This document shows positions 253-40,044 of a stretch of DNA of 40,044 nucleotides, in pieces. Under the pieces are notes generated by a model. It was not told where the DNA came from. It ran no database searches and saw nothing but the letters and a program-made list of their open reading frames with translations. This DNA is from Deltaproteobacteria bacterium (GTDB lineage Bacteria; Desulfobacterota; GWC2-55-46): assembly GCA_016234405.1 (NCBI GenBank), contig JACRCC010000059.1:1-40044 (forward strand), written 5' to 3'. Numbering within the stretch: position 1 is the first letter of the stretch; every line of letters begins with the position of its first letter. Made by a program: the position numbers and the translations under genes.

Positions 253-738
253 TTAAAATTCAAACGCCTTCCAGCCCTCTTTTTTCCATCGGAAATAATC
301 TTTCAGTATCCTTGCGTGGTCGAAGGCCATGTCTTTGGGCAGGTTGTCTTCGCTGAAAATCCCTATGGCCTTTGCGTCGTCACGCGCCTTTGGCGCGCCC
401 ACGGCCTCGGCGACGAACACGACGGAAATCGTGTGCATGCGGGGGTCTCTCTTTGGGTCTGAATAAGCGCGCATCTGCGCCTTGAGGCCGACCTTCAGGG
501 AGGTCTCCTCAAATGCCTCCCTTACCGCCGCCTCTTCAAGCGTCTCACCACGGTCAACGAAACCTCCGGGTATGGCCCAACCGTAGGGAGGGTTTTTGCG
601 CTCTATGAGGACAATCCGAAGGGGGGTTTTGCCGCCTTCGGGGTAATCCCCCCCGTCTGATTTGAGTTCTATTATTATGTCAACGGTGGGGACGGGGTTT
701 TTGAAGGTTTTGTTCATTGTGGGGGGAATGACGGCCAT
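253..738 (-). CDS. Nudix hydrolase (ADP-ribose pyrophosphatase-like)
   Basis: The 161-residue product belongs to the Nudix family, which hydrolyses nucleoside diphosphates linked to another moiety. The Nudix box runs from [14 protein letters not shown] to REAFEETS (about residues 58-81). It carries the catalytic REAFEE core, but the usual Gly after EEx is Ser. The block [16 protein letters not shown] before it resembles ADP-ribose or NUDT-type enzymes; the substrate is inferred only. Residues 28-41 ([15 protein letters not shown] region) are an extra loop between two conserved strands and are encoded by a G/C palindromic element at 621-654. The start is uncertain: ATG at 738 or at 717 (MNKTF), neither with a good ribosome site. 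The gene is the last of a minus-strand run with galT and the rubrerythrin-like gene. Confidence 0.85.
621..654. repeat. G/C palindromic element, double form (in Nudix gene)
   Basis: Two adjacent G-run/C-run units: GGGGGGTTTTGCCGCC, then CTTC, then GGGGTAATCCCCCCC. They are read on the minus strand as [12 protein letters not shown]. The same double layout occurs at 37294-37326, 38475-38507 and 39997-40027. Confidence 0.7.
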
Positions 739-13245: not shown

Positions 13246-14151
13246 TTGAATATTCGATTTGAAAGGACTAAAAATATCCTCGCCGCAATTGGGGCTTTTT
13301 TCACCGCTATAATAGTATTAGCGCTCCTCATTGCCTATTTCACGGCGGGCGGACGTTTAAACTCGTCCGAAAAAGTCGTCGTCGTCAAGCTCGACGGCGT
13401 GATACTGGATTCCATCGAGTTCAGCAGGGAGTTGAAAGAATTCGAAGAGGACGCCAACGTAAAGGCAGTGGTCGTCAGGATTGACTCGCCGGGGGGCGCG
13501 GTCGGCCCGTCTCAGGAGATATATAACGGCATCAAGCGGCTCAAGTCGGTCAAGCCAGTGGTGGCCTCGATGGGCACGATCGCCGCGTCAGGCGGTCTTT
13601 ACGCGGCGGTGGCGGCAAACAAGATAGTGGCAAACCCCGGAACATTGACCGGCTCCATCGGCGTCATAGTGGAATTTATAAACGCCGAGGAGCTTCTCCA
13701 GAAGCTCGGCCTTAAAGGGTCGGTCGTTAAATCCGGCAAGTTCAAAGACACGGGCAGCCCGCTCCGGCAGATGAGCGAAGAGGAAAAGGCGCTTTTGCAA
13801 TCCGTGATAGACGACGTCAACAAACAGTTCATAAAAGCGGTAGCCGACGGCAGGGGGATGAAAATAGAGGACGTGGAAAAGTTCGCCGACGGCAGGATAT
13901 TTACCGGGTCTCAGGCAAAGGAAAAAGGGCTTGTGGACAGCCTCGGAGATCTTTCGGATTCAATCGAACTCGGCGCGAAACTCGCCGGCATCAAGGGCAA
14001 ACCCTTCGTGGTCTATCCTGAAAAAAAGGGGTTGAAACTCCTCGAATATCTCTCGGGAGAATCCATCGTAAGGGGTATCTCAGGCATTATTGCCGGCTAC
14101 GGGGGAGATACCCCGGTCCGCATCATGTATCTGACGCGCGGCGTCCGGTAA
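13246..14151 (+). CDS. sppA: signal peptide peptidase SppA, short form
   Basis: A 301-residue membrane-anchored serine protease of family S49 that degrades cleaved signal peptides. One transmembrane helix lies at residues about 10-32, with the protease domain outside. The dyad is Ser115 in AASGGLYAA and Lys167 in SGKFKDTGSP. The spacing of 52 residues equals that of the short Bacillus-type enzymes. The start is a TTG directly after the rpsA stop codon (MNIRFERTKN), so translation is probably coupled to rpsA. Near the end, GGDTPVR (residues 286-292) is encoded by one of the G/C palindromes and lies beyond the conserved domain. Confidence 0.92.
   Translation: MNIRFERTKNILAAIGAFFTAIIVLALLIAYFTAGGRLNSSEKVVVVKLDGVILDSIEFSRELKEFEEDANVKAVVVRIDSPGGAVGPSQEIYNGIKRLKSVKPVVASMGTIAASGGLYAAVAANKIVANPGTLTGSIGVIVEFINAEELLQKLGLKGSVVKSGKFKDTGSPLRQMSEEEKALLQSVIDDVNKQFIKAVADGRGMKIEDVEKFADGRIFTGSQAKEKGLVDSLGDLSDSIELGAKLAGIKGKPFVVYPEKKGLKLLEYLSGESIVRGISGIIAGYGGDTPVRIMYLTRGVR
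14101..14114. repeat. G/C palindromic element, single (end of sppA)
   Basis: GGGGGAGATACCCC, read as Gly-Gly-Asp-Thr-Pro, the same peptide as the copy at 38788. The centre is 5 nt. Confidence 0.5.
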
Positions 14152-14226: not shown

Positions 14227-14511
14227 ATGACAAAGAGCGATCTCATCGAAAAGGTATCCTCGCGCGTTACGGCGTTTTCAAGAAAAGACGTCGAGATAAT
14301 CATAGATACGCTCTTCGAGAGCATGACGGAGAGCCTCATAAAGGGCGGCAAGGTCGAGATACGCGGGTTCGGCAGTTTCAAGATAAAAAAACGCGACGGC
14401 AGACAGGGGAGAAACCCCAAGTCCGGAGAAAATATTTTCATCGGCGCCAAAAAGGTTCCCTTCTTCAAGGCCGGCAAAGAGATTAAGGAACGGCTCAATA
14501 AGACTTCGTGA
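14227..14511 (+). CDS. ihfB: HU/IHF-family nucleoid protein (IHF-beta-like)
   Basis: A 94-residue histone-like DNA-bending protein. It has the family N-terminal helices (MTKSDLIEKVSSRVTAFSRK), the beta-saddle motif EIRGFGSF and the DNA-contacting arm GRNPKSGE. The position after rpsA-sppA is the classic place of ihfB, which favours IHF-beta over HU. An AGGAGG site at 14213-14218 serves the ATG at 14227. A mini frame ATG-AAA-TGA begins at 14222 and its stop overlaps the real start codon. It is followed by the HIT gene after 19 nt. Confidence 0.93.
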   Translation: MTKSDLIEKVSSRVTAFSRKDVEIIIDTLFESMTESLIKGGKVEIRGFGSFKIKKRDGRQGRNPKSGENIFIGAKKVPFFKAGKEIKERLNKTS

Positions 14512-14530: not shown

Positions 14531-15034
14531 ATGAAACAATTATGGGCGCCGTGGAGAAGTGAATATATAAACTCCGGCCGATTGATGGAATGTTTTTTTT
14601 GCTCGTCGCGCAAAAAGGGGGTTATCCCCCCGTTGTCTGACGAGAGTAAACCCCTTATCCTCTTTTGCGGCCCTTTGACGATGGTGCTCCTCAACAAATA
14701 CCCCTACAACAACGGACACCTGCTCGTGGCCCCGGTTAGACACATTGCAAAGTTCGAGGAACTCACCCCTGAGGAGGGCATTGACTCCTTCAAGATGCTC
14801 CGGGCCGCAATAGCCGCGCTCACCGAAAAAATGAAGCCCGACGGGTTCAACGTCGGGCTTAATCTCGGCAAGGCCGCGGGCGCCGGTGTTGAAGACCATA
14901 TACACTGGCACGTCGTGCCCCGCTGGCACGGAGACGTGAACTTCATGCCGGTCATGTCGGAGGTAAAGGTAATGCCCCAGCACCTCCGAGAAACTCTTTC
15001 GCTGCTCCTCCCGTTGTTTGAACGACACGATTAA
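14531..15034 (+). CDS. HIT-family nucleotide hydrolase / AP4A phosphorylase-like
   Basis: A 167-residue histidine-triad protein. The triad is HIHWHVVP near residue 120, after the family's YPYNNGHLLVAPVRH block. The start MKQLWAPWRSEYI and CFFC pair are typical of the branch called AP4A phosphorylase or HIT hydrolase, which splits dinucleoside polyphosphates or nucleotide conjugates. Residues 29-34 (GVIPPL) lie in a variable loop between the CFFC turn and the first conserved strand and come from a G/C palindromic element. A GAGGGGGAT sequence upstream gives a fair ribosome site. It closes the plus-strand block that began with pheA. Confidence 0.9.
   Translation: MKQLWAPWRSEYINSGRLMECFFCSSRKKGVIPPLSDESKPLILFCGPLTMVLLNKYPYNNGHLLVAPVRHIAKFEELTPEEGIDSFKMLRAAIAALTEKMKPDGFNVGLNLGKAAGAGVEDHIHWHVVPRWHGDVNFMPVMSEVKVMPQHLRETLSLLLPLFERHD
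14617..14631. repeat. G/C palindromic element, single (in HIT gene)
   Basis: GGGGGTTATCCCCCC, in frame as Gly-Val-Ile-Pro-Pro. It is identical to the second half of the double element at 38475-38507. Confidence 0.65.
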
Positions 15035-16429: not shown

Positions 16430-18745
<2,316 letters not shown>

Positions 18746-19902: not shown

Positions 19903-21177
19903 ATGCAGCTTACAGGTCTGCTCTGGGGCCAAAAGCTTTTAAAGCGCGTCGAGTTCCCGTCGGCTGAAGTGTTAGGCCCTGAGGCGAGCGTTGACGAGAT
20001 AAAAGACCTCATCAAAAAATGCGGCTCGGTATTCATAAAGCCCATCTTCAAGGGCGGGGTCGGCAAAAAGGGCAAATCCGGCCTCATCGGCAGGGCAAAG
20101 GACATCGGCACAGCGCTCAAGGAAAAAGAACGCCTTTACTTCGTGGAGCATACGCACGGCAACTCGGTATCCAAGGCCGACGGAGTTACCTTCGAGGGCG
20201 GGGTCCCGGCGGAGCACGAGGTCTATTTTTCGCTTTCGGACTCAACGGTCTTCCGCGCCCCGACCATGACCATCACGCATCACGGCGGCATGGATATAGA
20301 AGAGCTGCCCAAGAATAAAATCCAGGAAGTCCCCTTCGACCCGCTCACGGGGCTGAAGAGTTTTCACGTGGCCAACGCGCTGTTCGACCTGGGCGCGCCG
20401 AGCGAGATAATAAGCCCGCTCGTTCAGAATCTGCCCAAGCTCTGGACCCTTTACAACAACTACGGCATGAGCACGCTTGAATTGAACCCCATCCGCATGT
20501 CTGCCGACAAGGCCGGCAGACTCGTGCCGGTGGCGTGCGACTTCAAGTGCGGCTTCGACATTGACAACCCGGCGTGGAAGAGGCTTTCCCTCCCGTCCCA
20601 CCTCTTTGCCTCGGATTATTCGGAGTTCGAGCAGGAGATAAACTCTCTGCGCACCTATCAGGGGCAGAGCGACGTATTCGTAATCAACCCCAAGGGGACG
20701 ATTACGTCGCCGACCTTCGGCGGAGGCGCCAACGCCCTCGTCACGGAACTCCTCGGCGAGAGGGCCACCATATCGTCGGACTTCGGAGGCAACCCGCCGT
20801 ATGAGAAGATGTACCAGATTTCCCGCATCGTCTTCAAATACTGGCTCAAGCAATCCAACGTCCTTTTTATCATCGGCGGCAAGGCCAACAACACCGACAT
20901 ATACGAGACCTTCAGGGCAATGGCCGACGCCTTGAGGGAGTACTTCAACGCAAAAGGCCCCACGCCCCTTTTCGTGGTCATCGGCAGGGGCGGGCCCAAC
21001 CTCATACGCGGGATGGGCTACATGAGGGACACCCTCGACAACCTGAAACTCCCGTACAGGATATTCGGGCACGACAGCGCCATGAGCGAGGTCGTGAACT
21101 TCGCCCTCAAGACCGACCTATGGATGGACAAAGAGGGCCGAAGGCAGATAGCGGCCAAGTTCGGCGTTACGGCGTAA
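19903..21177 (+). CDS. aclB: ATP-citrate lyase, small (beta) subunit
   Basis: A 424-residue protein matching the N-terminal third of eukaryotic ATP-citrate lyase and related to succinyl-CoA synthetase beta. It contains the ATP-grasp part (FIKPIFKGGVGKKGKSGLIG), HHGGMDIEELP, the metal and substrate segment YGMSTLELNPIRM and the citrate-binding half with NPKGTITSPTFGGGANALV, FIIGGKANNTDIYETF and GRGGPNLIRGMG. With AclA it cleaves citrate to acetyl-CoA and oxaloacetate using ATP and CoA, the signature step of the reductive TCA cycle. It lies 31 nt upstream of aclA in the order known from green sulfur bacteria. Confidence 0.9.
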   Translation: MQLTGLLWGQKLLKRVEFPSAEVLGPEASVDEIKDLIKKCGSVFIKPIFKGGVGKKGKSGLIGRAKDIGTALKEKERLYFVEHTHGNSVSKADGVTFEGGVPAEHEVYFSLSDSTVFRAPTMTITHHGGMDIEELPKNKIQEVPFDPLTGLKSFHVANALFDLGAPSEIISPLVQNLPKLWTLYNNYGMSTLELNPIRMSADKAGRLVPVACDFKCGFDIDNPAWKRLSLPSHLFASDYSEFEQEINSLRTYQGQSDVFVINPKGTITSPTFGGGANALVTELLGERATISSDFGGNPPYEKMYQISRIVFKYWLKQSNVLFIIGGKANNTDIYETFRAMADALREYFNAKGPTPLFVVIGRGGPNLIRGMGYMRDTLDNLKLPYRIFGHDSAMSEVVNFALKTDLWMDKEGRRQIAAKFGVTA

Positions 21178-21208
21178 AAAAGACAACCTCATAAAAGGGT
21201 GAAAATAT

Positions 21209-23917
21209 ATGCATAAAGAAGGCGTCAAAAATCTTCCGTACTACGTCGGAGTGAAGTCTCTCGCGGACATCGCCACAAAGTCCGACAGGGTATGCGTCCT
21301 GAACATCCTCGGAAACGAGAGTAAAGCGGTAACGCCGATCAGCCACGTCTACTCCGGCGGAAACGTTGTCTTTGGCACCGGGCCGGGGAGGACGGGGCAA
21401 ACCCTTGAGACAAAGATAGGCAACATACCCGTCTACAACTCGATAAGAGAGGGCATCAAGGCGGGTCTTAAGTTCAACACCGCCGTCATATACCTTCCGC
21501 CGTCCGGCGTAAAAGACGGCGTTGCCGAGGCCGTGAGGCACAACCCGGACATCAAGAAGGTGATAATACTCACCGAAAAGGTCTCGGCAAGCGACGCGCG
21601 CATCATTAGGGCTGTTTGCCAGGCCAACGGCGTGGACGTATTCGGAGGCAACTGCCTCGGGGTGGCGGACGCTTGGAACAAGGTGCGGCTCGGCGGCGCG
21701 CTCGGCGGCAGCAAACCCGATGAATCCCTCGTAAAAGGCTCGATAGCGTTATTCTCGAATTCAGGCAACTTTACGACTACGATAGCCGTTTATCTCCTTA
21801 CAAAAGGTTGGGGCACCACTACCTCTATATCGAGCGGCAAGGACGTCTACATCCATTTTGGGCCTAAGGAATTCTTCAACGCACTCGACAGCGACGACAG
21901 GTCAAAGGCCGCCGTAGTCTACGTGGAGCCGGGCGGATATTACGAGGCCGGACTCGAAATAAACAAACCCACGGTCGTATGCGTGGTGGGCCGCTGGAAG
22001 GCGCGGCTCACGAAGGCGTGCGGACACGCGGGCAGCCTCGCTGGTTCGGGCGACGACGCCCGCGCCAAAGAGAACTGGTTCATGGATTACTTCGGCGTCA
22101 AGGGCATATATACGCCTTCCACCCCGATATTCTCGAAAAAAGGCGCGGTGGTGACCAACATCGCCGACATCCCGGCGGCGCTCACGAAGGTGATGGAATT
22201 AAACGGCGTCAAGTCCGACTTCGAGCCTAAAGGGGACCTCTCCTTGAAGTGCTGGTTCTCTAATAACGCCGGCATAGACATACCAAGAGATCTCGACGTG
22301 GCCGTGGTAAAGGCGGTATCTCCCTATGACGAGCAGATAGAGCACATAAACTCTCAGGTGGGCGCGCAGTATCCGAGACAGACGATGAAGGACTCAAGCG
22401 GCGCCTCGCTGATGGACCCCGTTACTCAGGTTACGCGGATCCACGGGGTATCCATATTGGACGCCTCAAAACGCTCTTTTGAAGAAAATCTTTATCAGTC
22501 GCTCCTCAAGAAATATCCTTCCGAGTACGACAAGGCGCTCGTAAACGTCGGCCTTAACGCCTTCGTAAATCACCACGACGACCCGGCCTGCTCTGCCGCG
22601 GACGCCGCGAGGGAGGCGGGAAGCTCCCCTAATACGGTACTTGCCGCGGCAGCCGCCGTTATCGGCAAAAAAAAGGCGCAGGCCTCGATTGACGCGGCGA
22701 ACACGCTCCTTGAACTTTTCCAGCGCTCAGGGTTGTCTAATGCCACCGACAAATTCGATTATTCCTCTATCATCAAGGGACTTACAAAAGAGCGGAAGGC
22801 CGCCCTTGTCGCCAAGGACGATCCAGCGGCTTCCGTGATGCTCGCCGCGGTGGAATCGCTCAACAGGAAATCCGTCTTCGTGGAGTTCGTCAAGGAGGCA
22901 GCTAACGGCAAGCCATCGAGTGACGCGCTCTTGGCCGCTATATGGACGACGCTCGGTTGGGAGCCTCTCGTAAGACGCGATATCTCCAAGATAACGCTCA
23001 CCGCGCTGCCGTGGTACGGAAGGCTCTTTTCAACGCTCGTGGGATGCTCGGTCTCGGCGGACAAACACGCGAAAAAGACCTTTTGCGGCGTCAAGAACGA
23101 CGAGATAATCCAATCGTGGTCTTTCACGGACGTTGCCTTCCTCGCCCTCATCGGAAGAAGGCCCGATGCAAAGGAACTCTTTGAGTTCTCGATGCTTCTG
23201 GGGCTTATAATATCGAACGGCCCCGGCACCATCTCTGCACAGGGCTGCAAGGGCGCGGTTTCATCCGATGGCCCGGAAGACCCGCACAGGGTGCAGATAA
23301 ACAAGGGTTTCATCGGTTTTCTCACGCACACGGGATTCGCGCACGGCGGCAACGGGTACGAGGCCATCGAATTCCTGATAGAACGCTTCAAAAAATCAGA
23401 CCTCAAAGACCCTTCGAGGAAAGACCACGGCATAAATCTCAAGGCCATAGCGGATGAATACGGCAAGTCCTACGCTAAATACAAGGCCGAGCAAAAGGCC
23501 TTCGGCAACGTCGAGTACATAAAGATACCGTGCGTCAACCACCCCATCTTCAAGGGTAAAGAGGTCAACTACGACCCGAGGGAAAGGTTCGTGAGCGCGC
23601 TCTTTGAAGAAAAGGGCATCTATAACGTATTTTTGGATTTCTATCACAAGCTCGTATGGTCGCTCTTCGAGACCAAGGTCTCCGCGAACGTTTATTGCGT
23701 GAACGTTGACGCGGTTATCGCCGTGATACTCTTAAAGATTGTATGGGAGGCCTTTAGAAACGGCGAGATGACCGGCAAGACGGTGGAGTCCGCCGCGTTC
23801 ACGACCTTCCTCTTCGGCAGGATGATAGGCTGCGCCGCAGAGATAGACGACCACATCAACAGGGGACGCAACATGGACACAAGAACCCCGGCCTCGAAGT
23901 GCATGTTCGTGGGATAA
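21209..23917 (+). CDS. aclA: ATP-citrate lyase, large (alpha) subunit, divergent long form
   Basis: A 902-residue protein. Residues 1 to about 330 are succinyl-CoA synthetase alpha-like: CoA-binding FGTGPGRTGQT, GSIALFSNSGNFTTT and the phosphorylated His273 in CGHAGSLAG. The last 300 or so residues are a diverged citrate synthase-like lyase domain. It shows LIISNGPGTISAQGCKGAV, NHPIFKGKEVNYDPRE where standard enzymes have GHR, and NVDAVIAVIL where they have NVDG, so a His and the Asp are kept. The middle (about 400-600) is extra or poorly alignable. Chlorobium AclA has about 610 residues, so this form is some 290 longer. Expression with aclB makes the ATP-citrate lyase assignment firm; the exact subtype is not. 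Confidence 0.85.
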   Translation: MHKEGVKNLPYYVGVKSLADIATKSDRVCVLNILGNESKAVTPISHVYSGGNVVFGTGPGRTGQTLETKIGNIPVYNSIREGIKAGLKFNTAVIYLPPSGVKDGVAEAVRHNPDIKKVIILTEKVSASDARIIRAVCQANGVDVFGGNCLGVADAWNKVRLGGALGGSKPDESLVKGSIALFSNSGNFTTTIAVYLLTKGWGTTTSISSGKDVYIHFGPKEFFNALDSDDRSKAAVVYVEPGGYYEAGLEINKPTVVCVVGRWKARLTKACGHAGSLAGSGDDARAKENWFMDYFGVKGIYTPSTPIFSKKGAVVTNIADIPAALTKVMELNGVKSDFEPKGDLSLKCWFSNNAGIDIPRDLDVAVVKAVSPYDEQIEHINSQVGAQYPRQTMKDSSGASLMDPVTQVTRIHGVSILDASKRSFEENLYQSLLKKYPSEYDKALVNVGLNAFVNHHDDPACSAADAAREAGSSPNTVLAAAAAVIGKKKAQASIDAANTLLELFQRSGLSNATDKFDYSSIIKGLTKERKAALVAKDDPAASVMLAAVESLNRKSVFVEFVKEAANGKPSSDALLAAIWTTLGWEPLVRRDISKITLTALPWYGRLFSTLVGCSVSADKHAKKTFCGVKNDEIIQSWSFTDVAFLALIGRRPDAKELFEFSMLLGLIISNGPGTISAQGCKGAVSSDGPEDPHRVQINKGFIGFLTHTGFAHGGNGYEAIEFLIERFKKSDLKDPSRKDHGINLKAIADEYGKSYAKYKAEQKAFGNVEYIKIPCVNHPIFKGKEVNYDPRERFVSALFEEKGIYNVFLDFYHKLVWSLFETKVSANVYCVNVDAVIAVILLKIVWEAFRNGEMTGKTVESAAFTTFLFGRMIGCAAEIDDHINRGRNMDTRTPASKCMFVG

Positions 23918-33749: not shown

Positions 33750-34493
33750 ATGACCGGATATTTAAAAAACCAAAAAGGCGCGTCGGTCGTTGCGGTTGCG
33801 CTCATGTTAGCGGTCATAACGTCCATCGGGATAGTCTTTGTCTCGCTCCTCTCGACGGGAGTCGAGATTTCGGTGACGGAGCTTAACTCTGCCCGCGCCC
33901 TCTACATCGCCGAGGCCGGCGCGGAGGTTGCCGCGGCAAAATTCAAAAACGACTGGCTGTGGAAAGACGGTTACTCGGCCAAGCAAATCGGCCCAGCGCT
34001 CTGGGGAGGGTCTTTCGACCTCGAACCTTTGCAAGGCGATATGTATCCCTCTCAGACAAGCGCATCCCCGTATTGCATAGCCTTTACGAGCGAGATGGTA
34101 AATACCGCCGCAAAACCGGCAAGGACCGTCCTCGTGAGGCTCGCATGGGACCCCGCCGTCAACCCCGCGAACCTCGGTTTAGAACTTTATAACTCGGACG
34201 TATCCGCTTCGTGCGCCGCGCCCGCGCCTGCCCCGGTTGCCGCGTCTCAAACTGCCAACAACCCGGAGATATTGAGATACAAGATACCTGAGCCCGGTTC
34301 ATTTCCGACGACCGTTACATATACGGTCAGGGTTACGGGGAACGCCGGCAACGCTCACAGCCTTTCGATAATCCACCCCGACATGCCGGGTTTTTCCACT
34401 GCCGACGTTTATCGCGCGCTTATCGTTCTCGGCAAAAGCGGAGATTCGAGGAGAGAAACGGTGATTACCGTCAGGAGACTGCCGTCTTGCTGA
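33750..34493 (+). CDS. MshP/PilX-like minor pilus protein
   Basis: A 247-residue protein with the PilX-type N-terminus NQKGASVVAVALMLAVIT, which keeps a Gly-like cleavage context but lacks the +5 Glu, as in PilX/GspK/MshP. ARALYIAEAGAEVAAAKF is the usual post-helix segment. The rest is a beta-rich domain with a Pro/Ala linker (CAAPAPAPVAAS). Position equals mshP. It ends inside the start of the next gene (7-bp overlap). Confidence 0.82.
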   Translation: MTGYLKNQKGASVVAVALMLAVITSIGIVFVSLLSTGVEISVTELNSARALYIAEAGAEVAAAKFKNDWLWKDGYSAKQIGPALWGGSFDLEPLQGDMYPSQTSASPYCIAFTSEMVNTAAKPARTVLVRLAWDPAVNPANLGLELYNSDVSASCAAPAPAPVAASQTANNPEILRYKIPEPGSFPTTVTYTVRVTGNAGNAHSLSIIHPDMPGFSTADVYRALIVLGKSGDSRRETVITVRRLPSC

Positions 34494-36979
34494 ACGTGAA
34501 AAAAACAGTATATTTAGCGTTCCTCCTCATCGGTCTTTTCGCGCCGACGCTTTCTTTTGCGGCCAAAACATTCACGCTGAGCGTTCCCGGGGGCACGGAA
34601 GTTACAATGGGGGACGCGGATGCGATTATCCCGGTTACGATTACGAACGGAAGCGCAAGCGGGAGCAACATAAGAGACATAACATTCACGATAAATACCG
34701 CTTCATACAACTTCTCCTCCTCGACCATTGCGCCGGTTGGGTGGTGCATCAACGGAACGCCGACAACGGGCTCGATTAGTTTTGCGATGCTGCAGGGTGA
34801 CGGGTCATGCAGCACCGCAAATAACGGGAGCCAGATAGTCCCCGGAGGAAGTCTTACGTTTAACGTAAAAGTCCTGCCGCTCTCAGCCGCTGCGGACGTT
34901 GCAGGGGACAGTTTTCTCGACGTTACCGTAGGTGGTTTTTCACGAGGCGCGCTTCCGGCTTGGACCCGAAGGGCGCTTTGGGCCGAACTCACGGCAACGC
35001 CGTCTTCGCTTGGCGCGGGTTCCGCGATAACGCTCCAGATGCAGGTTATAAACCGCTCGACCGTAAGCCAGTCTCTTATAACGACTGCGCCTACCCCACC
35101 GTCGTTTTCAAGCGCAATTGTGACGAACACGGCTGGGCCTTATTTCGGCTCTACAACGTTGAGCGCAACGCTTAACGCAACGTCGGCAACAATCACGGTG
35201 GTCTCGACAACGGAATTTCAATCGTCCGGAACGGTAAAAATTGACTCGGAACAGATTTGCTACACCGGAAAGACCGCCACAACCCTTACGGGCGCAACTC
35301 GCGGGTGCAATGCCACGACCGCGGCCGCGCACTCATCCGGCGCCGTTGTTTATAGTTTAACCGCTTTTACGCTTGCAAGCGGGGCAAGCGCCGCCATGAC
35401 GTGGCTCTACAGCGCGGATATCACCGGCGAAGGGTATTTCAGCGCAAGGGCGCAAAATTCCACTGCAACGGCCTCGTCGGTTCTTACAAATTCCAATACC
35501 GTAAACATCGGCTCTTTTACCGCAGCCATGTCAATTACGCCTGTAAGCGTCATCTCAGGCCAAACCGTTACGGTGAACATGACCGTAACGAACAACGGAA
35601 CTTCCGCGCTCATAAACGTCGTCCCCAATGCCCTTACCCCGTGCGCGGGCGGCGCAACGGAAACCTTCACTGCAGGTCCGTCTCCGGCGAGCATCTCATC
35701 CATCGCAGGCGGGGCATCAGGCGCGTTTACGTGGACGTATACCGTAACCGGGGCAACCGGACAGACTTATTGCCTGAGCGGCGCGGCTACAGCCAACGGC
35801 CCTGTTACCACGAACACGGCCTTGTCCAACGGCGGGACAGTGGCAAGATATGCGGTCTCAGTAAGCCCAAACGTCATTGCAAGCGCCACCGCGAATCAGG
35901 CGTTCACGTGGAGCGTTTTTAACGGAGGTAGTTTTACGATTAGAAGGGTGCGAGTCGCCACGCCAACGGCGGGCGGCAACTGGACGTGTTCGTCGGTAAC
36001 CCCTCCCGTTGGGTGGAGCGCGGTGTGCGCGGCAACGGTAAGTTTCACCTCGCCCGGTTTGGCAAGCGACATACCGGCGGGCGGCACAATGAATTTCACC
36101 ATAACGTTTTCAACGACAGAGACCGTAACGACCGACAAGACCGTTCCTTTTCCAGTAACCATCAGAGACAGAGGAGGCGCAGGGGCTTCAAACACGCTCG
36201 CGTCTTCCGTAATTGTCAGCGCATACGCCCTTACCGTTACCCACTCGCCAACGGGCCCGATTGACGCGGATGGTTCGAGCCGCTACACGATGACCGCTGC
36301 TCTCACGAGCGGGGGGAGTCCGGTATCAGGCAAGACGATTACCTTCACCACCACGAACGGAACGCTAACCCCGTCAACCGCAATTACAGGCGCAACCGGC
36401 GTTGCAGCCACGCTGCTCGTATCTCCCGTGAGCACAATCGCCGCCTCCGCAACAATAACCGCCGAATATCAAAACGCGGCTTCAACGGACACCGTATATT
36501 TTACCGGATTCGTAAAACCCAATATCGCGTACTGGGGAGGGCTTGCGCCCGTGTCAGTCACGTGCGGCGGCACAAGGTCATTTACCATGACGCTTAAAAA
36601 CATCAGCGCAATCGCCATGACGCTCACGAGCGCGAGTTATTTCGCGTTTAACGATGCGTCTTGGGGCGGGTGTTCCGTGTACAAGGCCTTTCTCAATGCG
36701 GCGGACGCCGGGGCAATAGCCGCAGGCGCAGTCAAAACCGTAACGTTCGGCTCACCGACAAGCACCGGCGCGGGAGGGGGAGTAACCGTGGCAGCGTCGT
36801 TCGCAGTAGGCACATACTCGCCTGCCGCAAACGCGGCCCCCCCGCCGGAGAGCGGTTTGTTTCTCACGGACGGCGGCGGCGTAAACGACCAGTATAGAAC
36901 GGTCACGGACACGGTGAGCGTTTCCGGCGGCTGCAACTCCGTAAAAATAAACGTCATCGAGTGGTGGGAATTCCGTTAA
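34487..36979 (+). CDS. large secreted Ig-like repeat protein (MshQ position)
   Basis: An 830-residue Thr/Ala/Ser-rich exported protein with a signal peptide (KKTVYLAFLLIGLFAPTLS, then FAA). It contains tandem beta-sandwich segments with repeated NxxTV-type strands. Residues about 245-285 hold FQSSGTVKIDSEQICYTGKT followed by a TGATRGCNATTAAAHSSG stretch, a short module also seen in phage and surface proteins. Residues about 585-680 resemble a bacterial Ig-like (Big_1, invasin-type) domain (SSRYTMTAALTSGGSPVSGK). Its place after the MshP-like gene matches mshQ, so an adhesive or tip role is inferred. TTG at 34487 is 9 nt after AGGAG; GTG at 34496 is the alternative. A hairpin follows the gene. 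Confidence 0.8.
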   Translation: MLNVKKTVYLAFLLIGLFAPTLSFAAKTFTLSVPGGTEVTMGDADAIIPVTITNGSASGSNIRDITFTINTASYNFSSSTIAPVGWCINGTPTTGSISFAMLQGDGSCSTANNGSQIVPGGSLTFNVKVLPLSAAADVAGDSFLDVTVGGFSRGALPAWTRRALWAELTATPSSLGAGSAITLQMQVINRSTVSQSLITTAPTPPSFSSAIVTNTAGPYFGSTTLSATLNATSATITVVSTTEFQSSGTVKIDSEQICYTGKTATTLTGATRGCNATTAAAHSSGAVVYSLTAFTLASGASAAMTWLYSADITGEGYFSARAQNSTATASSVLTNSNTVNIGSFTAAMSITPVSVISGQTVTVNMTVTNNGTSALINVVPNALTPCAGGATETFTAGPSPASISSIAGGASGAFTWTYTVTGATGQTYCLSGAATANGPVTTNTALSNGGTVARYAVSVSPNVIASATANQAFTWSVFNGGSFTIRRVRVATPTAGGNWTCSSVTPPVGWSAVCAATVSFTSPGLASDIPAGGTMNFTITFSTTETVTTDKTVPFPVTIRDRGGAGASNTLASSVIVSAYALTVTHSPTGPIDADGSSRYTMTAALTSGGSPVSGKTITFTTTNGTLTPSTAITGATGVAATLLVSPVSTIAASATITAEYQNAASTDTVYFTGFVKPNIAYWGGLAPVSVTCGGTRSFTMTLKNISAIAMTLTSASYFAFNDASWGGCSVYKAFLNAADAGAIAAGAVKTVTFGSPTSTGAGGGVTVAASFAVGTYSPAANAAPPPESGLFLTDGGGVNDQYRTVTDTVSVSGGCNSVKINVIEWWEFR

Positions 36980-37009
36980 GGCCGTAATGCGTTAAAACAC
37001 AAAACACCC

Positions 37010-37035
37010 GGCAGGGGGAGATCCCTCCCCCTGCC
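37010..37035 (+). terminator. hairpin after the Ig-like protein gene
   Basis: Perfect 11-bp stem GGCAGGGGGAG (37010-37020) / CTCCCCCTGCC (37025-37035), loop ATCC, no T-run. Its G and C runs make it look like a long relative of the G/C palindromic elements. Confidence 0.55.
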
Positions 37036-37036
37036 A

Positions 37037-37064
37037 TTGACTAATTGATTATTGGAATTATACT
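37037..37064 (+). promoter_or_regulatory. promoter of the second pilus gene group
   Basis: TTGACT (37037-37042), 16-bp spacer, TATACT (37059-37064), directly after the hairpin and 28 nt before the MshM-like ATG. Confidence 0.65.
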
Positions 37065-37091: not shown

Positions 37092-38006
37092 ATGTACGAA
37101 AAATTCTTTTATCTAAAAGAAAGGCCGTTTCACATAACGCCCGACCCCCAGTTTCTGTATCTCAGCAAAGGCCACGGCCAGGCGTTGGACCTCATGGCCT
37201 ACGGGATACGGGACAGGAGGGGTTTCATACTCTTAACGGGCGAGGTCGGCGCCGGAAAGACCACCCGGTGCAGGGCGCTTATGAAGAGACTACGGGGGGA
37301 CAACCCCGCAGGGGGCAATACCCCCCTGCGCAGCGCGCTTGTATTAAACCCGCTTATGTCGACCTACGACCTTTTAAAGACCATAAACGCGGACTTCGGC
37401 CTCGCCGCCCCTTTTGACACTTTAAGCTCGCACAACGGGGGGATAACCCCCCTCGGAACGCTTAACGGTTTTTTGTTGAAGACGGCCTCAACGGGAGGCA
37501 ACGCGGCGCTGATAGTGGACGAGGCCCAGACCCTTACAAAGACTTCTTTGGAGATGCTCCGTATGCTTTCAAACCTCGAAACCGAGAAACAAAAGCTCTT
37601 GCAGATACTCCTTGTGGGCCAGCCTGAACTTGACGAGAGATTGAAACTTAGGGAGCTGAGGCAATTGAATCAGCGCGTTGCCGTAAGATGCCGCCTCGCG
37701 CCGCTTGACCTCGCGGACACCGGCGCATACATAGAAAAACGCATCGCAACGGCAGGGGGAAGGGGGAGTGTGCTCATCAGCAAGGACGCGGTAAAACTCA
37801 TTCACGTAAAGAGCGGCGGGGTGCCGCGTTCGATAAACATCACCTGCGACAGGGCGCTTACCGCGGCCTTTGTGGAGGGTAAAAGGGTTGTAGACCGCCG
37901 TATAGCGGGCATGGCAGTAAAGGAACTTGAGAGCGAGGGCTTCTTGAAAGACGATTCGAGGGAAGGCCCGCTGCGCGCGCTAATCAGCTATATACACCGC
38001 ACCTGA
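37092..38006 (+). CDS. AAA ATPase, MshM/ExeA (GspA) family
   Basis: A 304-residue ExeA-type ATPase that helps assemble the secretin through the cell wall in type II secretion and MSHA systems. The start MYEKFFYLKERPFHITPDPQ is diagnostic. Walker A is GEVGAGKTT near residue 52 and Walker B ALIVDEAQ near 140, followed by MLRMLSNLETEKQKLLQILL and VGQPEL. Two loops absent from usual family members, RGDNPAGGNTPLR (about 67-80) and NGGITPLG (about 115-122), are encoded by G/C palindromic elements and lie between conserved blocks. The C-terminal peptidoglycan-binding region of ExeA is absent, as in MshM. Confidence 0.88.
   Translation: MYEKFFYLKERPFHITPDPQFLYLSKGHGQALDLMAYGIRDRRGFILLTGEVGAGKTTRCRALMKRLRGDNPAGGNTPLRSALVLNPLMSTYDLLKTINADFGLAAPFDTLSSHNGGITPLGTLNGFLLKTASTGGNAALIVDEAQTLTKTSLEMLRMLSNLETEKQKLLQILLVGQPELDERLKLRELRQLNQRVAVRCRLAPLDLADTGAYIEKRIATAGGRGSVLISKDAVKLIHVKSGGVPRSINITCDRALTAAFVEGKRVVDRRIAGMAVKELESEGFLKDDSREGPLRALISYIHRT
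37294..37326. repeat. G/C palindromic element, double (in MshM-like gene)
   Basis: GGGGGGACAACCCC, then GCA, then GGGGGCAATACCCCCC. Read as GDNPAGGNTPL; the minus-strand copy at 621-654 gives [12 protein letters not shown]. Confidence 0.75.
37437..37452. repeat. G/C palindromic element, single (in MshM-like gene)
   Basis: GGGGGGATAACCCCCC, in frame as Gly-Gly-Ile-Thr-Pro-Leu. Confidence 0.75.
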
Positions 38007-38007
38007 A

Positions 38008-38039
38008 GGGGGGGGTATCCCCGCTTGGGGTAATTTCCC
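38008..38039. repeat. G/C palindromic element, double, intergenic
   Basis: A run of eight G, TAT, CCCC, GCTT, GGGG, TAATTT, CCC. It begins right after the stop codon of the MshM-like gene. Confidence 0.65.
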
Positions 38040-38165
38040 TCGTTTTGACGCGCAAAAATTCCATCCGGTCAAGAGCGCCTTCACCAAGAAAATCATCCAA
38101 TCCCCGTTTAAAGCATGTCCTCTAACGCATTACCGGGGCACACGGGGATATGAATACCGGCGACA

Positions 38166-38178
38166 GGGGTAATCCCCC
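38166..38178. repeat. G/C palindromic element, single, intergenic
   Basis: GGGGTAATCCCCC, 13 nt before the MshN-like start codon; GAGAGGGG after it serves as ribosome site. Confidence 0.65.
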
Positions 38179-38190
38179 TGAGAGGGGTTC

Positions 38191-39036
38191 ATGAGCATAA
38201 TTCACGATGCCCTGAAAAAGGTCGAGGGGGGAGTTACCGTCTTAGACGGCAATTTTTCCAACGCAGGGGGTTTCCCCCCCGCAGCCGGACTGCGCGCGCC
38301 GCGAGGAGACACGTTAGCGCAAACGCAGGGTGAAAACGGCCCAAGGGGGGTATCCCCCCGCAGTTTGACCTTTGTCCTTTTGCTTGGAGTCCTTTTAGTC
38401 TCATCCGCCTCATGGGTTTTTCTCCAAAAGAGAAGCCTGTCAAACGCAGACCATTATCCGCCAGTAATTCAGGAGGGGGTTTGGCCCCCCTTGGGGGTTA
38501 TCCCCCCCTTGATGGCGGTAAAAACTCCGGTCGCCGCAATTGCCGATAACCCTCTAAAAAACGGCATAGAGCTTTACAGGGCGGGCAAACTCGATGACGC
38601 GCTCTCACAGTTGAAACTCGCGCTTGTTGCAGCGCCCGACAACCCCGTTATCCACAACAATATCGGCGCAGTTTATGCCGCTAAAAATGAATATACTATT
38701 GCGGAGCAGTTTTTCATAAAGGCATCCGAGCTTAACCCGAACTATGCCGAGGCCTTCAACAACCGGGGCGCGGTTGTCATCAAACAAGGGGGGGATACCC
38801 CCCTCGGACGGGGTGGTGAGGCGATAGGGTATTTCAAAAAGGCCCTCGCCATAAATCCCGGATACGTTGACGCGCATCTTAACGCGGCCTCGGCTTATGA
38901 AAAAAACGGAGACGCGGAAAGCGCCCTTACGCATTACAGGTCGTATCTTGAGCTGAGCACGGACAATGAAATTAAGGCGAAAATGGCGGAAAAAATCACG
39001 GCGCTCATGGGCGCAATTTTGTTGGGTCAGCGGTGA
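38191..39036 (+). CDS. MshN-like TPR membrane protein
   Basis: A 281-residue protein. The N-terminus MSIIHDALKKVE is the GspB/MshN-type cytoplasmic start, followed by one transmembrane helix (FVLLLGVLLVSSASWVFL, about 62-80) and three to four TPR repeats in the periplasm (NGIELYRAGKLDDALSQLKL, PDNPVIHNNIGAVYAAKNEY, ELNPNYAEAFNNRGAVVIK, INPGYVDAHLNAASAYEKNG). It carries four G/C palindromic elements, giving GGFPPA, RGVSPR, EGVWPPLGVIPPL and GGDTPLG. The third lies in the linker before the TPRs and the fourth inside a TPR turn. In MSHA systems MshN partners the ATPase encoded just upstream. Confidence 0.82.
   Translation: MSIIHDALKKVEGGVTVLDGNFSNAGGFPPAAGLRAPRGDTLAQTQGENGPRGVSPRSLTFVLLLGVLLVSSASWVFLQKRSLSNADHYPPVIQEGVWPPLGVIPPLMAVKTPVAAIADNPLKNGIELYRAGKLDDALSQLKLALVAAPDNPVIHNNIGAVYAAKNEYTIAEQFFIKASELNPNYAEAFNNRGAVVIKQGGDTPLGRGGEAIGYFKKALAINPGYVDAHLNAASAYEKNGDAESALTHYRSYLELSTDNEIKAKMAEKITALMGAILLGQR
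38266..38280. repeat. G/C palindromic element, single (in MshN-like gene)
   Basis: GGGGGTTTCCCCCCC, read as Gly-Gly-Phe-Pro-Pro in the cytoplasmic linker. Confidence 0.7.
38345..38359. repeat. G/C palindromic element, single (in MshN-like gene)
   Basis: GGGGGGTATCCCCCC, read as Arg-Gly-Val-Ser-Pro, just before the transmembrane helix. Confidence 0.75.
38475..38507. repeat. G/C palindromic element, double (in MshN-like gene)
   Basis: GGGGGTTTGGCCCCCC, then TT, then GGGGGTTATCCCCCC. Read as EGVWPPLGVIPPL. Almost identical to the copy at 39997. Confidence 0.8.
38788..38803. repeat. G/C palindromic element, single (in MshN-like gene)
   Basis: GGGGGGGATACCCCCC, read as Gly-Gly-Asp-Thr-Pro-Leu inside a TPR turn. 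Confidence 0.75.
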
Positions 39037-39061
39037 AATTAAGCGGTAAAAGGCTCTGATG

Positions 39062-40044
39062 ATGCCGTTCTTCCATGGGGCGCTATACCCCTCGAAAAAT
39101 CTTATTGGCATAGACGCGGGGGCATACTCAACGAAGATAGTCTGGCTCAAGGGGGGAGGCGCAGGCTCGTATAGGCTCAAATCCGCTTTCTACGCAAGGT
39201 CACCCGCCGATAAAAACGCGGGTTTTTTGCGCGCTATCGCCAATGCTCAAAGGCTGACAGGTAAAAAGGTTGCCACCGTTCTCTACGGCCCGGAACTCCT
39301 TGTAAGACGCATAACGCTACCGCCGATGCCCGACAAAGACCTGCGCGAAGCGGTCAAATGGGAGATAAGAAAAGAATCCGCGATACCCGCCGATGAACTC
39401 GTCTGCGACTACGTCGTGCCCGACGACAAGGCATCCGAGGGACTTCTCTCTATCATCGCGTTTGCGGCGAGGCGGGGCGCGGTGGACGGCATCATGTCCG
39501 AATTCAAATCCGCAGGCGTGGAGGTCAGGGTCGTCGAGACCGTGCCTACGGCGCTGCTCTCTTCCTTCGATGCCAATAACGTATGGGAAGAAGGCGTCAA
39601 CTACGCGTTCATTGATATCGGACTCACGGCCTCGACCCTTGCGATATTTAAAAACCGCAAACTCGTCTTTGTGCGCGAGATGGCCTTTGGGGGCGCCGAG
39701 ATAACGGGCGCGCTCTCTTCAGAAACCGGCAAAAACGAGGATGAATGCGATGAGATTAAGGCATCGTGTTCGCTCGAAAAGGGTGTCGCCCCATTTGCGG
39801 TTGTTGCGAAGTTCATCGAAAGGCTTTGCTCGGACATCCACAGGTCTTTTGAATACTATCAGGCCCAATATAGAGGCGGGCAGGTGGACCGTCTCTTTCT
39901 CTCAGGGGGTACCGCCCGCATGAAGCACATTGACGGTTTTATGACCGAGACGCTCGGCATCCCCGCCTTCGCCGATGACCCTTTGAGAAAGACCAAGGGG
40001 GTTTTGCCCCCCTTGGGGGTTTCGCCCTCTTCGACGGAGGAGAG
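39062..40044 (+). CDS. pilM: PilM/MshI-like actin-fold pilus assembly protein, right end cut
   Basis: An open frame of 327 codons that continues past the window. It has the actin-like first phosphate loop (NLIGIDAGAYSTKIVWLKGG), the PilM segment LPPMPDKDLREAVKWEIRKE, the second phosphate region (NYAFIDIGLTASTLAIF), REMAFGGAEIT and the adenosine-binding RLFLSGGTARMKHIDGFM. PilM forms a cytoplasmic ring that binds PilN and links to the ATPase and platform. The start may be ATG 39059 or 39062. A double G/C palindromic element encodes GVLPPLGVSP near residues 312-321, where homologues have the NPF/DP segment. PilN-, PilO- and secretin-type genes are expected to follow outside the window. Confidence 0.85.
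   Translation, partial: MPFFHGALYPSKNLIGIDAGAYSTKIVWLKGGGAGSYRLKSAFYARSPADKNAGFLRAIANAQRLTGKKVATVLYGPELLVRRITLPPMPDKDLREAVKWEIRKESAIPADELVCDYVVPDDKASEGLLSIIAFAARRGAVDGIMSEFKSAGVEVRVVETVPTALLSSFDANNVWEEGVNYAFIDIGLTASTLAIFKNRKLVFVREMAFGGAEITGALSSETGKNEDECDEIKASCSLEKGVAPFAVVAKFIERLCSDIHRSFEYYQAQYRGGQVDRLFLSGGTARMKHIDGFMTETLGIPAFADDPLRKTKGVLPPLGVSPSSTEE
39905..39917. repeat. possible degenerate G/C palindromic element
   Basis: GGGGGTACCGCCC lies within the conserved SGGTAR motif of PilM, so it may be ordinary coding sequence and not an inserted copy. Confidence 0.25.
39997..40027. repeat. G/C palindromic element, double (in pilM-like gene)
   Basis: GGGGGTTTTGCCCCCC, then TT, then GGGGGTTTCGCCC. 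Second half is degenerate. Close match to 38475-38507. Confidence 0.75.

Follow-up and report, generated by a model that had tools for sequence, protein, structure and literature searches.

The window analysed here, 40,044 bp long, is the entire contig C28 of the 2.04-Mb draft genome (G000) of a bacterium. Judged by its ATPase gene, this bacterium is closest, among named relatives, to metagenome assemblies of 'Deltaproteobacteria' (53-58% protein identity), of which one derives from groundwater. Towards one end of this contig, short palindromes made of a G-run, an AT-rich centre and a C-run are crowded in and between three genes, which encode an MshM/ExeA-like AAA ATPase, a tetratricopeptide repeat (TPR) protein, presumably MshN-like in view of its position, and a PilM-like protein (Table 1). 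All three reading frames stay open (the third up to the contig end) and, therefore, the genes look functional. The palindromes belong to a family of very similar 18-letter sequences present in more than 100 copies in this genome, many of which are inserted in frame into ordinary genes, such as mutS, the adenylate kinase gene and genes of a pilus operon.

Table 1. Palindromes of the 18-bp family and their host genes in the window.
Feature	Position	Strand or setting	Basis
Host gene, MshM/ExeA-like AAA ATPase	37092..38006	+	Pfam AAA_22; homologs
Host gene, TPR protein	38191..39036	+	Pfam TPR families
Host gene, PilM-like, cut by contig end	39059..40044	+	Pfam PilM_2
Degenerate plus clean copy (GGGGTAATCCCCCCC at 640)	621..654	minus-strand open reading frame (ORF) 253-738	sequence
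GGGGGAGATACCCC, doubtful member	14101..14114	near end of ORF 13246-14151	sequence
Single, GGGGGTTATCCCCCC	14617..14631	HIT-family / ATP adenylyltransferase-like gene	insertion relative to homologs
Double, GGGGGGACAACCCC-GCA-GGGGGCAATACCCCCC	37294..37326	in ATPase gene	in-frame insertion relative to homologs
Single, GGGGGGATAACCCCCC	37437..37452	in ATPase gene	insertion relative to homologs
GGGGGGGGTATCCCC plus degenerate second copy (GGGGTAATTTCCC)	38008..38035	intergenic, directly after ATPase stop codon	sequence
Single, GGGGTAATCCCCC	38166..38178	intergenic, upstream of TPR gene	sequence
Single, GGGGGTTTCCCCCCC	38266..38280	TPR gene, poorly conserved N-terminal part	weak alignment, median gain 10 residues
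Single, GGGGGGTATCCCCCC	38345..38359	in TPR gene	median gain 3 residues
Double, 18-bp period	38475..38508	in TPR gene	weak alignment, median gain 5 residues per half
Single, GGGGGGGATACCCCCC	38788..38803	inside TPR motif	insertion relative to homologs
Double, second half degenerate (GGGGGTTTCGCCC)	39997..40027	near 3' end of PilM-like ORF and of contig	sequence; one homolog spans

A search for G{4,8}N{3,6}C{4,7} returned 16 non-overlapping matches in the window. Eleven of them, starting at 37294, 37311, 37437, 38008, 38166, 38266, 38345, 38475, 38493, 38788 and 39997, span 37294-40012, where a preliminary description of this DNA had claimed at least eight copies (37.3-40.03 kb); its statement that the doubles at 38475 and 39997 are nearly identical also holds, as their first 25 bases agree except at one position. 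Matches outside the cluster start at 640, 14101, 14406, 14617 and 25884. Among the further copies proposed earlier, the one at 14617 is genuine, the one at 621 is a degenerate copy (GGGGGGTTTTGCC) that a clean copy adjoins at 640, and the one at 14101 is a doubtful member. At 14406 and 25884, homologs align without any insertion, and these two matches therefore look like chance.

These palindromes are far in excess of expectation. Counted with overlaps, 37 matches are present in the window, compared with 3.9 +/- 2.9 in dinucleotide shuffles, and the mirror pattern (C-run before G-run) gives 13. Genome-wide, GGGGN3-7CCCC occurs 493 times versus 271 for its mirror, and GGGGGN3-6CCCCC occurs 136 times versus 57. 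For in-genome copy counts and null models, about 58% of the genome (1.18 Mb) was read, in which G5..C5 was found 60 times, as opposed to 2-7 times in third- or fourth-order Markov sequence. The codon-shuffle check suggested in the preliminary description was carried out on the same sequence, and AT-centred G5..C5 palindromes within genes numbered 52, compared with 5.4 on average and at most 12 once synonymous codons were shuffled, so codon usage does not account for the excess. A search of 395 genomes of the phylum with the pattern AAGGGGGNNNNNCCCCCTT was too strict to inform, with 2 matches even in the genome under study.

The best reading of the unit is a sequence of about 18 bp, in which arms of G5-6 and C5-6 enclose an AT-rich loop of 3-6 nt and a linker of about 3 bp, often TTN or NAA, makes up the rest. 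Among 72 strong copies, defined by an AT-rich loop and by arms that add up to at least 10, 59 are 15-16 bp in total length, despite varying lengths of arm and loop. In copies with arms totalling at least 9, the loops average 79% A+T, and several of them recur far above chance, such as CAATA/TATTG (13 times), ATAA/TTAT (7 times) and AATTA (6 times). AA is favoured upstream and TT downstream, each side independently of the other (both in 9 copies versus 11.5 expected), and a polar linker with TT on one side is therefore unsupported. Tandem units are mostly spaced 16-18 bp apart with a mode of 18, as at 38475-38508, and the predicted folding energies of the single-stranded DNA range from -7 to -12.5 kcal/mol, with singles and most doubles giving the expected hairpins. 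Copies with one arm mismatch are also in excess (97 versus about 58), and copies with two are not (630 versus 605-769); as decayed copies are few, the family is young or renewed. A search for flank repeats around the copies, made with exact empty sites lacking, found no consistent target-site duplication. A flank-repeat signal at distance 24 was rejected, since it came from two copies; one lies in a FabF-like gene, and the motif there looks native, not inserted.

The comparison of occupied and empty sites, which had also been proposed for this DNA, could be made at the protein level only, because the homologs (from the same family, the same order and more distant lineages) are mostly 30-60% identical, and the residues encoded by the palindromes were found to be absent from them. 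In the ATPase, the double at 37294 encodes 7-8 residues that all 40 homologs lack, and at the single at 37437 at least 4 residues are absent from 36 of 40, the gap being exactly 6 in 27. The single at 38788 is absent from all 31 spanning alignments, by exactly 6 residues in 30 of them, and at 14617 at least 4 residues, mostly 6, are absent from 4 of 5 homologs. In total, 24 strong copies could be compared with homologs that span them, and at 19 of these the median gain is 5 residues or more, which holds for 3% of random positions in these alignments and for no weak look-alike out of 11; the p-value of this test is nominal, since several copies share one gene. In the best-sampled singles, the gain is exactly 6 residues, that is, 18 bp. 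Besides the MshM-like ATPase and its TPR neighbour, the host genes include those for MutS, Adk, GlnD and HrcA. In MutS, 10 residues at the palindrome are absent from 25 of 25 relatives and also from solved MutS structures, and Adk and RibD are each longer around the palindrome, by a net 6 residues, than their best solved homologs.

Copies are unevenly spread along the genome, with a variance/mean ratio of 2.97 in 10-kb bins. The cluster in the window (11 in 2.72 kb) exceeds all of 500 random placements, the densest of which held 5, and a second dense stretch with 10 copies in 20 kb is present on contig C30 (L071). Pairs within 20 kb of each other share an identical loop 16 times, compared with 6.3 expected (p 0.004); for instance, two palindromes in mutS (L068, 14905 and 15121) carry the same loop TAATG 216 bp apart, and the loop CATAA was found twice 459 bp apart. 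This sharing of loops between near neighbours suggests local copying. No preference for intergenic DNA was detected, since the share of copies in predicted genes (86%) is near the random expectation of 78%.

Most genomes of the same family contain 0-17 G5..C5 matches, and one from another genus of this family (G003) contains 85, together with 252 of the mirror. Its copies (L291-L305, L224) are chains of CCCCC-TGA/TCA-GGGGG-TTCAA-like units, in which the G-runs are mostly 17-19 bp apart. Several of them are intragenic, and the best-aligned doubles add 12 residues, or 36 bp, in frame. This sister genus thus follows the same 18-bp plan with a sequence family of its own: G5/C5 arms, a unit of about 18 bp, tandem arrangement and in-frame insertions are common to both, whereas the loops (TTCAA, CTGAG or TTGAA), the linkers (TCA/TGA) and the longer tandem chains set the G003 family apart.

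Excess, insertion relative to homologs, unit size, recurrence, clustering, retention in frame and a parallel family in the sister genus are all observed, and we hold with considerable confidence that the palindromes are lineage-specific, ultra-short insertion units of about 18 bp, recently added, singly or in tandem. New copies would arise from existing units, partly over short distances, and would enter genes and intergenic DNA about as often as their lengths predict. As the route, we tentatively prefer template switching at the hairpin, or synthesis primed there by microhomology, during replication or repair; the G-run and C-run would supply the microhomology, and no dedicated transposase would be needed. 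Copies probably survive in genes because 18 bp preserves the frame and G/C arms seldom create stops, and because the encoded residues (GGxTP, KGVIPP and similar) sit where the fold tolerates them. By extension, template switching at G- and C-runs might let an 18-bp hairpin multiply without its own enzyme, with different families in sister genera and repeated 6-residue inserts, a scenario offered with the same reserve.

Several points weigh against this account. Five of the 24 strong copies show no clear insertion, and the doubles of G000 give 7-10 residues, not 12. The empty sites are known from proteins, none at strain level. Loop sharing between neighbours is modest, and regional composition could contribute to it in part. 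Given the diversity of the loops, a common master for all copies is unsupported, and the enzyme-free route is a putative one. The earlier proposal is partly supported: the palindromes are inserted relative to homologs, and recurrent centres, together with centres shared by neighbours, favour self-copying. A role as protein site or recombination seed was neither favoured nor refuted by the analysis.

The closest competitor to template switching is that the units are moved in trans by an unknown or non-RAYT enzyme as a minimal element resembling a miniature inverted-repeat transposable element, which is possible and nearly as likely, ranking just below it. The sharply defined insert length, the many loci and the young copies would fit such an enzyme. 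However, the lack of a consistent target-site duplication and the diversity of loops, which speaks against a single master, count against it, and a transposase would have very little sequence, 15-18 bp, in which to recognize both ends.

Alternatively, the palindromes might be selected functional sites, bound by nucleoid, replication or regulatory proteins or acting as RNA hairpins, and kept where useful. The arms are perfect and the loops variable, as if the arms were maintained, and hairpins are predicted to fold. Yet the copies lie in many unrelated host genes and in all orientations, their gene/intergenic share is near random, no gene function is common to the clusters, and relatives manage without palindromes at the same sites, which makes this explanation improbable.

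Even less probable, in our view, is that the palindromes are repetitive extragenic palindrome (REP)-type elements moved in trans by a REP-associated tyrosine transposase (RAYT, Y1/HUH) recognizing the hairpin. REPs are known to share all of these traits: small hairpins, tandem copies, intragenic units and no target duplication (PMC3733652), and G000 possesses one Y1_Tnp-family gene. But this lone match is weak (27 bits), the sequence beside it carries no G/C palindrome, and no Y1_Tnp match was found in G003, which carries the sister family, nor in G001 of the same family. Furthermore, the predominance of intragenic copies fits poorly, and the REP tags are not enriched within 8 bp of the 72 copies (GTAG/CTAC 5 and CGTC/GACG 5, against about 2.6 and 8.7 by chance). 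With a single weak Y1_Tnp gene that has no palindromes beside it, none in G003 and no tag, the RAYT route is unlikely. The Y1_Tnp-family gene itself (L275, contig C2 at ~27.7 kb) is located between two direct copies of a stretch of more than 80 bp (AAACGCGTTTATCGCCGCAAACACCTGCTCGTCCG...).

Finally, a by-product of chance or of the G-run and C-run (Gly/Pro) codons, which does explain some weak G4/C4 matches such as 14406 and 25884, is refuted for the strong AT-centred copies by the codon-shuffle and Markov nulls, the recurrent loops and the insertion test, and has practically no probability left.

According to previous studies, REPs of the GTAG and CGTC super-families are 20-40 bp long, bear a tag tetranucleotide and are mostly intergenic, the GTAG type being linked to RAYT, and intragenic REPs also occur in DNA-repair genes (PMC3733652). 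The palindromes described here resemble them as high-copy small palindromes with tandem or grouped units, loops of 4-5 nt and some intragenic copies (PMC3733652), but they are 15-16 bp palindromes in units of about 18 bp, have no tag, are not extragenic and have no linked RAYT. Rickettsia palindromic elements (RPEs) of 105-146 bp occur as in-frame insertions in the genes of conserved proteins (PMC2229807); this mode of insertion is common to both, and unit length (about 18 bp), sequence and host lineage, with deltaproteobacterial relatives instead of Rickettsia, differ. Yeast mitochondrial GC clusters (M1, M2, GC42) are 30-80 bp long and mostly non-coding, with a putative AG target duplication (PMC4464245, PMC4478555). 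Like the palindromes here, they are short, G+C-rich and present in many copies as singles and tandem arrays, have conserved stems with variable loops, are sometimes intragenic (rps3/VAR1, rRNA) and show clade-specific expansions (PMC4464245, PMC4478555); unlike them, the present units are 18 bp long, bacterial and mostly in genes, with no target duplication found.

As each known kind fails at least one tested defining feature, the palindromes are placed among small palindromic insertion elements as a variant outside all three kinds. A search of open-access papers, with most subscription papers outside its scope, turned up no 18-bp bacterial element of such form, and as far as these papers go, the earlier statement that no named repeat has this form stands for the exact form, although related kinds exist in intragenic REPs, RPEs and yeast mitochondrial GC clusters. 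At 18 bp, these palindromes rank among the shortest insertion-like repeats in bacteria, with yeast GC clusters as a close parallel. If the enzyme-free route is true, few self-propagating DNA units in bacteria would be smaller than this 18-bp hairpin, which would be the bacterial equivalent of those clusters. In-frame palindromic insertions are already known from RPEs and intragenic REPs; at 18 bp and in steps of 6 residues, they supply conserved genes throughout the genome with small, quantised insertions. Moreover, the two related genera, which differ in their palindromes but share the 18-bp plan, offer a system for testing directly how tiny mobile hairpins originate, with or without a transposase.

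Two other genomes with high counts were rejected as carriers of the same family. The G..C count of G033, from the same order (L276-L290), is due to a REP-like GCTTCAGGGGGTTTCACCCCCTGAAACCCCC array with a spacing of about 80 bp, and the C..G count of G001 is due to a longer repeat (CCCTCCCCCTCGATGGGGGAGGG and similar), which looks intergenic. Both repeats share only G5/C5 arms with the 18-bp family. In G001 (L308-L314), more than 100 copies of the palindrome CCCTCCCCC-TCGAT-GGGGGAGGG adjoin a GGTGAAAACATTTTTTCACC-like stem-loop and likewise appear to be intergenic.

As well, the window contains a strong inverted repeat, GGCAGGGGGAGATCCCTCCCCCTGCC, at 37008-37037, just 3' of ORF 34487-36979, which is terminator-like and lies outside the 18-bp family. 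A monomeric NADP isocitrate dehydrogenase is encoded at 16526-18745, and two ORFs at 19903-23917 match succinyl-CoA ligase and citryl-CoA lyase, which is consistent with a two-subunit ATP-citrate lyase. On the strength of these genes, the host possibly possesses a reductive tricarboxylic acid cycle.

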